DNA from: Apus apus
Taxonomy: Eukaryota > Chordata > Aves > Apodiformes > Apodidae
NCBI RefSeq assembly: GCF_020740795.1
Contig: NC_067304.1
Span: 6,500,056 to 6,564,055 of the forward strand
Direction: 5' to 3'
DNA length: 64,000 nucleotides
Notes under the pieces: generated by a model
Database searches by the model: none
What the model saw: only the letters and a program-made list of their open reading frames with translations
What the model was told of the DNA's origin: nothing
In this document: positions 33,745 through 36,700 of the stretch, piece after piece
Numbering within the stretch: the first letter of the stretch is position 1
How the letters are laid out: the number at the start of each line of letters is the position of its first letter
Made by a program: the position numbers and the translations under genes

Positions 33745-36700
33745 TCAGGACCCCAGCCCAGCAAGTGTCCCCATAATTGTCCTTAACATGGAGGTGAAGG
33801 CCTGCAGTGCCTCTGGCTTCGCCTCGCTCTGCTTCACCACAACCTGCATCTCTGAACCTGCTGCCTGGAGCAAGAGCTCTGTCAGGAACAGGCAACCTGT
33901 GCCATCCTGAGCACTGAGGTAAGCTTTCCATGGCTGGACACCAGCTCTGCTCATTGCAATAGTCTGAATGTGGACAACGTGAAGAGCCGTCTGTATGGTA
34001 TCTGGATGAACAGTCCCACACCAGGGCAGAGACAGGTGGCAGCTCATGTCCAAGCTCAGCCAGGTCTTCTCAAACTGTTCTGCAGTCAGGTAAACATCAG
34101 GAATTAAGGTGAGACTGCTTGTATCAGGATGAACTTTGAGGACTTCAGTATTCCCTTCAGAAATTAGTGACTCTGAAATGAAACCACAAATGTGTGAGAT
34201 GCAGCATATAAAGTGCAGCTCCCAGTTCCACAAAGAACACCTTACAGAGCCGTCAGATGAAGGATTGGAATCACAGTGCAGGACAGTCAGAACACTAAGA
34301 CAGTATTCTCAAAGCATGGTGATCTTCTTCCAAAGAAACCCAGGTGAGAACATCTACTGACAAGAGGAAAACAGACCCTAGTGAAGGTGGGGCGGGTTAC
34401 CTGTTTCTCTGCTCCTGGAGTCAGCACAAGGTGAAAAAGCATAAGAAGGTTCTGCTGGCTGGTGAGCAGTGACAAGTGCCCAGCGTTCCTTGCCATAAAC
34501 TGGAGCAAGAGTATTAAACTCTGAAGCCCATGTATTCACAGGCCGCTCAGCCTGGTCTTCCAGGAGCCCCAGAGAGGGGTCAGACTTGGGGCTGCACAGG
34601 ACCCGTTTCACTTCTTCCACACCAGACTGCAAAAGGCGATAGTAGAACAATCCACGGTCTCGTACTGCCATATCCATCTCCTCCTCTGGGAATGAGAGGG
34701 ACATAATTTATGGAGAATTCTATCATCCAGATTTCCCCAAAGTACTATCACTCAATTACAGAACAGATTCCCAGGGATACAGTGTAAGCCTGTTACACTC
34801 ACCAACCAGACAGCAGGGGCCAAGTAGCAGCCTAGGGCATAAAGCCACCTTACCTTGCCATCCTAGCTGTCTCCTCACAGCAAGGATGCTGACACATGGC
34901 ACCCACACGCTGCGGACACAGCCAAACCAGGTCCCAAAAAGCCTGTACTACAGCTTCAGTGAAGGAGAACGCAGGGAACACACCGATGCAGTAGTAGAGC
35001 AGTCTCCCCAGCATGTCCTGACACTCAGCGGGACGCGACAGGAAAAGTCGCAGCAAAGCTGTCAGAAGCTCCATCTTCACTGCTGGAAACATCTCCGACT
35101 TCACGTTCTCCACAAAGTCCTCTAAAACGTAGGGGGCATTCGGAACCTTCTCACCATGCGTGCCCAGGAGCCAGATCAGTGCTTGCTTGCCCTGAAGGAA
35201 CCACAGGAAAAAAAGCAAATAGGTGCTGCTTAGAGAGAGGGAGAGCTGACATGGAACAGATATGGAAGAACAAGATACTTGCCAGTTGTGAGCCAAAGGA
35301 AAACCACATAGTCCCTGTCCACTCACCCTCAGTCACTGCCAGCTCACAGCACAAGGCCACCTCACCTCACTGTCCTGGAGGGTGTCCTCACAGCCAGGCA
35401 GTGCCCGGCACACGGCGTCTGTGCACTGGGGACACAGCCAGACCAGGTCCCGGAAAGCCTGCACCACCGCTGCAAGGAAACACAGTGCTCAGCCTTCCCT
35501 GAGCAGTATAAAACCGCCAGGGAGACAAAAAAACAACAAAACCTAAAAAACCCCACTCAAGACTCTGTAAATCTTAGCTAGAGAGGTCAGTGCCTTGCTT
35601 GTGACTGTGATTTGAGACACATTGCAGTTGTAAGAGCAAAGTTGCACCAAGTCCAAAATAAAGCACTGAAACTTCAGATTGTTCCGCTGGCTGCTGGAAA
35701 GTAATTTCTCTTTTGGACATTCCCCAGCCCTTAAAAAGACACTCACTCATGATGCGTCAGACACACAAGGCCAGAACAACAAATTAAAACTAAAACCAAT
35801 TCCAAATGAGTCTCATGTACTTTACGTCAAAATCTTAAAAGGCTCTGCTGCCCAGTCTGAGAAACATGAGCAGCTTCTAAGGCCTAACTCATCAGCTGAG
35901 TGCAAGTGTGTGGTTTTCAAAACTAAAAGAAAGATAATTTAAAAGAGAGGGCAGAGACAGCAATGACATGAAGTTAGACCTGAGGACAGCAGAAGAAAAA
36001 GAGAAGCCTGTCTACAACTGAATCAGACTGTTATCATATGAGGAACAGAAATTACAAAGATTCAAATGATGTATTGATCATCTTGGCCCTTAAACAGCTA
36101 CTAGCATGTCTCTAGAGAGTCCCTCACTGCCTAAGTCAGCAGGCAGCAGCCAGAAATGAGTCTCAACATCAGACCACGAAGGCAGCTATGATCATCTCCC
36201 CCTTCACCACAAAAAGCTCCTAAGGAAGGAAAAACAACAACATCCAGTCACACTATATAGCCCCACTCCACCAGGAAGACTTCCACTGAAGACGCCAATT
36301 AAATTAAAAGCCAAGTACCTTTCAAAACCTCAAGTTTGGGATCACAAGCCCCAGCAAGGCTACTTCCTGTAAAAAGCTGCAGATGATTACCTGAAGTGAT
36401 GTGTTCCTGCTGAAGCCCCAGGAGCTCTGTTAGAATCCCCACACACTGTTCAGTGTATGTTCTAGCAATATTGCCTGCAGAGACACCAAAGGACATAAAA
36501 GACAACTTCTGATCAGACTGAAATGGGAACCAGGAGCCCAGCTATTCATCACAAACTCACTTTAAAGAAACAGCCCCTCTCTCTGCCTTTTTGATTTTGA
36601 TTTCTGAAAGGGTAGTCAAAAGAGCTTGTTTCCCACACAAGGGGTATGTTCCTTTTGCTGAAGCCAAGCCTCAGAAGAAGCCAGAACTTTTCTTAAACGT

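Follow-up and report, generated by a model that had tools for sequence, protein, structure and literature searches.

The window analysed here, a stretch of 64,000 nucleotides of the Apus apus genome, contains the AP4B1 gene on its minus strand, with a gene model of 10 coding exons separated by GT-AG introns that encodes a protein of 740 amino acids followed by a stop codon. This protein matches the AP-4 beta chain of PDB entry 9u9r, which we take to be human, over residues 1-575, and that of 9u9i over residues 1-568, and a domain search places Adaptin_N at residues 27-524 and the beta appendage domain at residues 623-732. The exons considered in what follows, all on the minus strand and taken from the gene model, are exon 7 (35366-35469, 104 nt, entered in phase 1 and left in phase 0, also defined by the match to 9u9r), exon 8 (34984-35191, 208 nt, phase 0 in and phase 1 out) and exon 9 (34401-34685). 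The residues at the exon 8 junction, LLYYCIEEE, are the same as in 9u9r. Since this structure fixes the normal exon 7-8-9 reading without gaps, the additional exon-7-like segment described below is absent from the normal protein. In humans, mutation of AP4B1 leads to spastic paraplegia 47 (PMC11554807).

AP4B1, whose start codon is at 38765 on the minus strand, and a plus-strand gene are arranged head to head (region 38765-38975), and about 0.2 kb of G+C-rich sequence separates the AP4B1 start from the likely ATG of this neighbour, read by eye at 38973. The neighbour's ORF at 39623-40546 matches a DNA repair metallo-beta-lactamase domain, and the gene is presumably DCLRE1B. A further plus-strand ORF with a protein kinase domain match (42944-44116) is, as we assume from gene order, HIPK1. 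Elsewhere in the window, a tandem array of a 24-nt unit, a length that is a multiple of three, occupies 29924-30024 with 4.2 copies and 94% matches; its plus-strand frame is open and reads as an AAASAPEA repeat, and the ORF around it is without a Pfam match. In addition, a 113-nt direct repeat (25561-25673 and 50978-51090), 74% identical and 25 kb apart, is possibly a dispersed repeat element. Outside the window, a globin search of the genome gave 11 matches, among them three alpha-type genes located together on a different contig; one of these resembles PDB chains named alpha-A and another haemoglobin D, the top hits being constructs with a doubled alpha chain that match twice. Combined with the size of the genome, this is what one would expect of a bird.

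A diverged duplicate of exon 7 within intron 8

Intron 8 of AP4B1 contains a diverged duplicate of exon 7, delimited by alignment to 34854-34953 (minus strand, 100 nt). The layout put forward in the earlier note, i.e., exon 7, exon 8 and then the copy, is borne out by the alignment and the gene model, with a gap of 30 nt, which is ambiguous, between exon 8 and the copy. The duplicated segment as a whole (34837-34974, minus strand; source 35349-35485) comprises a short 5′ flank, the exon-7 copy and the start of intron 7. Upstream, the alignment extends about 21 nt before the copy, and the 5′ edge is uncertain, as neither this edge nor the upstream 30 nt is significant when taken alone. When 34974-34837 is compared with 35485-35349, 103 of the 132 aligned sites are identical, the remainder consisting of 23 transitions and 6 transversions, with 7 gap runs, and the K2P distance between the copy and the exon-7 region is 0.274 (SE about 0.05). 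The copy agrees with exon 7 at 37 of its first 44 bases, exactly as had been counted before.

A tandem exon duplication is recognized by an intragenic exon copy more similar than chance and by similarity that runs into the flanking introns. Here, the local alignment of intron 8 with the exon-7 region scores 76, against a maximum of 33 among 2000 dinucleotide shuffles (mean 19.6, SD 2.6), and 14 of the 17 intronic bases past the copy donor, to position 34837, match those of intron 7. Because the similarity continues into the flanking intron, the copy was made at the DNA level and is not a retrocopy, and the proposals of a genomic duplication and of intronic similarity beyond the donor are upheld. 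Furthermore, a DNA search of the same genome (1.10 Gb in 110 contigs) with an 835-nt query, reaching from the last bases of intron 6 through the whole of intron 8, yielded one candidate and one match, at 100%; neither a second allele nor a retrocopy was found, in a search that skips very common words and thus does not prove absence.

A full tandem duplication of exon 7, intron 7 and exon 8 was considered and finds no support. What is left of intron 8 (168 nt) is without local similarity to the expected sources: the local scores were reached by 381 of 1000 shuffles against exon 8, by 366 against intron 7, by 698 against intron 7 beyond its first 30 nt and by 915 against intron 6. In global alignment, the same 168 nt gave a borderline result against the whole of intron 7 (64 of 1000 shuffles) and 534 of 1000 once the first 30 nt of that intron were left out. 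This lack of likeness to exon 8 and to the rest of intron 7 points to a short duplicative insertion, or to a larger tandem duplication that was later lost or decayed. A breakpoint located exactly at the exon 8 donor was likewise considered and is not established. At the native exon 8 donor, the first intronic bases are similar to the tail of intron 6, the donor-proximal 15 nt agreeing with it at 9 of 10 ungapped bases; this score is equalled in 3.1% of single-base shuffles and reached by 41 of 800 overlapping gene-region windows, a set from which the source and query windows were not removed.

Neutral rates in birds lie at 1.2-2.4e-9 per site per year. With these rates, the K2P distance of 0.274 dates the duplication to 57-229 My, depending on the rate and on the constraint assumed for exon 7, and to 85-169 My under the middle assumption on constraint. 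Moreover, where 9u9r has CQ and CEE, exon 7 of the swift has CR and CED, and the copy reads CQ and CCEE. Two older states, no longer present in exon 7, may thus survive in the copy; the comparison is limited to two sites, the first of which could also be a CpG change in the copy. Taken together, the age and the two older-looking sites render an assembly artefact of recent origin improbable, and from both the copy is expected to occur in relatives as well. Searches for relatives gave 2 stretches matching the pattern in viral contigs and 28 in genome contigs, none of which was confirmed.

Reading frames and predicted products

Five uses of the copy were modelled, and all of them truncate AP-4 beta. 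If exon 8 is extended by 130 nt to the copy donor and joined to exon 9, the product has 581 amino acids: the shifted frame runs for 34 codons past the junction codon and stops in exon 9 at codon 582, a TGA at 34580-34582 (minus strand) located 179 nt upstream of the exon 9/10 junction. If intron 8 is retained, the product has 547 amino acids, 503 canonical and 44 new, ending at a TAA at 34850-34852 (minus strand, from the gene model). The remaining uses take the copy as an exon of its own: joining exon 6 to the copy and exon 9 gives 467 amino acids, exon 7 to the copy and exon 9 gives 435, both running into stops, and exon 8 to the copy and exon 9 gives 571, the last by way of a 30-nt intron. 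The earlier note was right that the copy, by the loss of four bases overall, shifts the frame into a stop in exon 9, and that exon 8 read through its donor ends in ETARMAR and a stop.

That the copy could be spliced as an alternative or mutually exclusive exon finds one point in its favour, the phase of its acceptor (1), which fits the ends of exons 6 and 8. This use is nonetheless very improbable: the intron separating the copy from exon 8 would be 30 nt long, against 43, 49 and 56 nt for the human ultra-short introns cited as spliced in PMC4463651, the combinations of exon 6 or exon 7 with the copy and exon 9 hit stops, and the copy acceptor reads AAG where exon 7 has CAG. Mutually exclusive exons keep an intact frame from either copy and are neighbours with only an intron between them; here the frame from exon 6 through the copy is broken and exon 8 intervenes. 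Given that all five uses truncate the protein and that the gap is shorter than the shortest intron cited, the copy is not a spare coding exon.

A second use, suggested in the earlier note, is an AP-4 beta subunit ending within intron 8 and devoid of hinge and appendage. The frame is open as described, for 44 codons past the exon 8 donor, and both hinge and appendage would be lost; the break after residue 503, in turn, precedes the end of Adaptin_N (524) and the end of the match to the solved chain (575), so part of the trunk would be lost as well. The open frame was rejected as evidence of coding: 20% of shuffles of the extension stay open, and, among the eight other exons tested, the frame continues past the donor for 79 codons in exon 2 and for 62 in exon 4, compared with the 44 of exon 8. 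In intron 8, a scan for 11 poly(A) hexamers found neither AATAAA nor ATTAAA, the only hit being CATAAA at 34712.

As a rule, an mRNA is exposed to nonsense-mediated decay (NMD) when a junction follows its stop codon at a distance of more than about 50-55 nt. The stop of the extended form lies at 179 nt from the exon 9/10 junction, and that of the retained form even further upstream; from these positions, decay would be expected of both if exons 9 and 10 are spliced. A stable 547-residue form ending in EETARMAR, whether through retention of intron 8 or through early polyadenylation, is accordingly hardly to be expected, since the intron has no AATAAA or ATTAAA and the chain, with 44 new residues after residue 503, would end within the trunk, its last part, the hinge and the appendage being missing.

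Native and copy donors behind exon 8

The native donor of exon 8 (TCG/GTGTGT, 34978-34986, minus strand) has a matrix score of 1.88 and a U1 pairing energy of -4.9 kcal/mol. Its pairing with U1 is the weakest of the nine donors of the gene, the other eight ranging from -7.5 to -10.3, and its matrix score is the second lowest, only donor 4 being lower (1.76). The donor of the copy (AAG/GTAAGG, 34848-34856, minus strand), 130 nt downstream, scores 7.33 on a simple, approximate donor matrix and thereby surpasses each of the nine gene donors, which range from 1.76 to 6.41; the previous remark that the copy keeps a good donor thus stands. By U1 energy (-10.0) it comes third, after donor 2 (-10.3) and donor 7 (-10.2). 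Among the 6919 GT sites of the window, both strands counted, only 5 score at least 7.33, the copy donor being one of them, and from the first base of exon 8 up to exon 9 no other GT exceeds 4.81; an exonic GT at 35155, with 4.63, also scores higher than the native exon 8 donor.

The two differences between the copy donor and the present donor of exon 7 both raise the matrix score, and not the U1 energy. In neutral simulations with 0.26-0.32 substitutions per site, a donor that starts as that of exon 7 today still scores at least 6.41 in 12-18% of runs and attains 7.33 in about 2%; if the donor had been AAGGTAAGG from the time of the duplication, 8-13% keep at least 7.33. These fractions make an intact strong copy donor somewhat unexpected under decay, with chance still a possible cause.

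The reading that we favour, and hold to be fairly probable, is that of an exon-duplication relic that acts, if at all, as a competing predicted 5′ splice site for exon 8. In this reading, about 140 bp, comprising the end of intron 6, exon 7 and the start of intron 7, were copied long ago to a place within intron 8, close behind exon 8; the duplicate then decayed as a coding exon while keeping a strong donor, whose matrix score now exceeds that of exon 7's present donor. Whenever U1 picked this site over the weak native one, exon 8 would become longer by 130 nt, the frame would shift in exon 9, and the extended mRNA, with its stop upstream of the next junction, would be removed by NMD. The duplication, the reading frames and the predicted strengths of the donors are what the analysis establishes; the use of the copy donor, the decay and any effect on the level of AP-4 are inferred. 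The earlier idea of a poison segment lowering AP4B1 mRNA is plausible in this form and has become sharper, as the copy donor outscores the nine gene donors and the exon 8 donor pairs worst with U1, on the basis of predicted donor strengths.

In mouse cells, a weak annotated 5′ splice site was reported to compete with downstream sites, which, when strengthened, are used alongside it in wild type and more so without NRDE2, and NRDE2 and CCDC174 keep weak annotated donors in use despite a stronger downstream donor (PMC10351895). Duplicated exons that introduce stops are, in turn, described as generally downregulated by NMD (PMC5224494). By analogy, both exon 8 donors would be expected to be active, NMD then eliminating most of the extended form; use of the copy donor is expected to be low to moderate, a matter of splicing noise rather than of a regulated switch. 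Since the weak native donor could be supported by exonic enhancers or by NRDE2 and CCDC174 (PMC10351895), the copy donor may also be silent.

An inert relic, in which the copy is under neutral decay and nearly all splicing goes through the native donor, is a tentative alternative to such competition. It accords with the four nucleotides lost overall and the gap runs of the alignment, with codons 16-22 of the copy, which look unconstrained (10 differences in 21 sites), with the share of open shuffles noted above, and with the frequency of such events, a 2002 survey cited in PMC9013439 having found tandemly duplicated exons in about 10% of animal genes, with more than 2,000 unannotated candidates. 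It sits less well with the position of the donor that is strongest by matrix, 130 nt behind the one that pairs most weakly with U1, and with codons 1-15, where 6 of 7 differences are synonymous. In simulations of a neutral copy beside a constrained parent, so few changed residues occur in 0.5-1.7% of cases, for a 15-codon stretch that was picked with the differences already in view. When codons 1-22 are taken together (17 differences), the corresponding fraction is 2.6-3.6% if changed residues are counted and 3.2-6.6% if the count is made on first and second codon positions; owing to its indels, the last third of the copy did not enter this analysis.

This hint of constraint in the 5′ half of the copy, together with the donor arrangement, the geometry of NMD and an age put at tens of millions of years at least, would also agree with a special case of the competing-site reading, namely a regulated poison extension in which the amount of AP-4 beta in a given tissue or stage depends on the choice of donor. 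These hints are weak and were drawn after the fact, and such regulation is unlikely. More unlikely still is the broadest version, according to which the duplication gave bird AP4B1 a lasting rival donor, perhaps rewriting the intronic half of the exon 8 donor, so that the competition of a weak with a strong donor, passed on through many bird lineages, would meter the supply of AP-4 beta and the copy would be kept for its donor and not for its protein.

Relation to known exon duplications and competing donors

A literature search returned no report combining AP4B1 with the phrase exon duplication, and, among the matches listed, none was on such a copy, by title, for AP4B1 and chicken, nor on the AP4B1 copy for exon duplication with nonsense-mediated, splice donor or bird genomes. 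If the copy donor is used, the locus would be a clean natural case of an exon duplication creating a splice competitor in a disease gene, and, if this is true, a duplicated exon can be of consequence solely by virtue of its splice signal; if the donor is not used, the copy is an ordinary relic.

Tandem exon duplications are common, and the AP4B1 copy is a new case of a familiar kind, unusual in its layout. Like the unannotated tandem exon duplications described by Ivanov and Pervouchine (2022, PMC9013439), it is a diverged second exon copy within a gene; unlike those, it lies beyond the next exon, 30 nt behind the exon 8 donor, a position that makes its splicing to exon 8 as an exon unlikely and lets it extend exon 8 instead. 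In U2AF1, where exons Ab and 3 derive from a duplicated exon, transcripts with both copies or with neither carry stops and are downregulated by NMD (PMC5224494). There, each copy alone codes, whereas the AP4B1 copy is out of frame in every modelled use. The closest likeness in terms of donors is found in the account of mouse Cdk2 intron 1 (PMC10351895), in which a weak annotated donor faces downstream competitors and nonfunctional transcripts arise when these win; the AP4B1 competitor differs in its origin, an exon duplication, and in the exon-like stretch that it adds.
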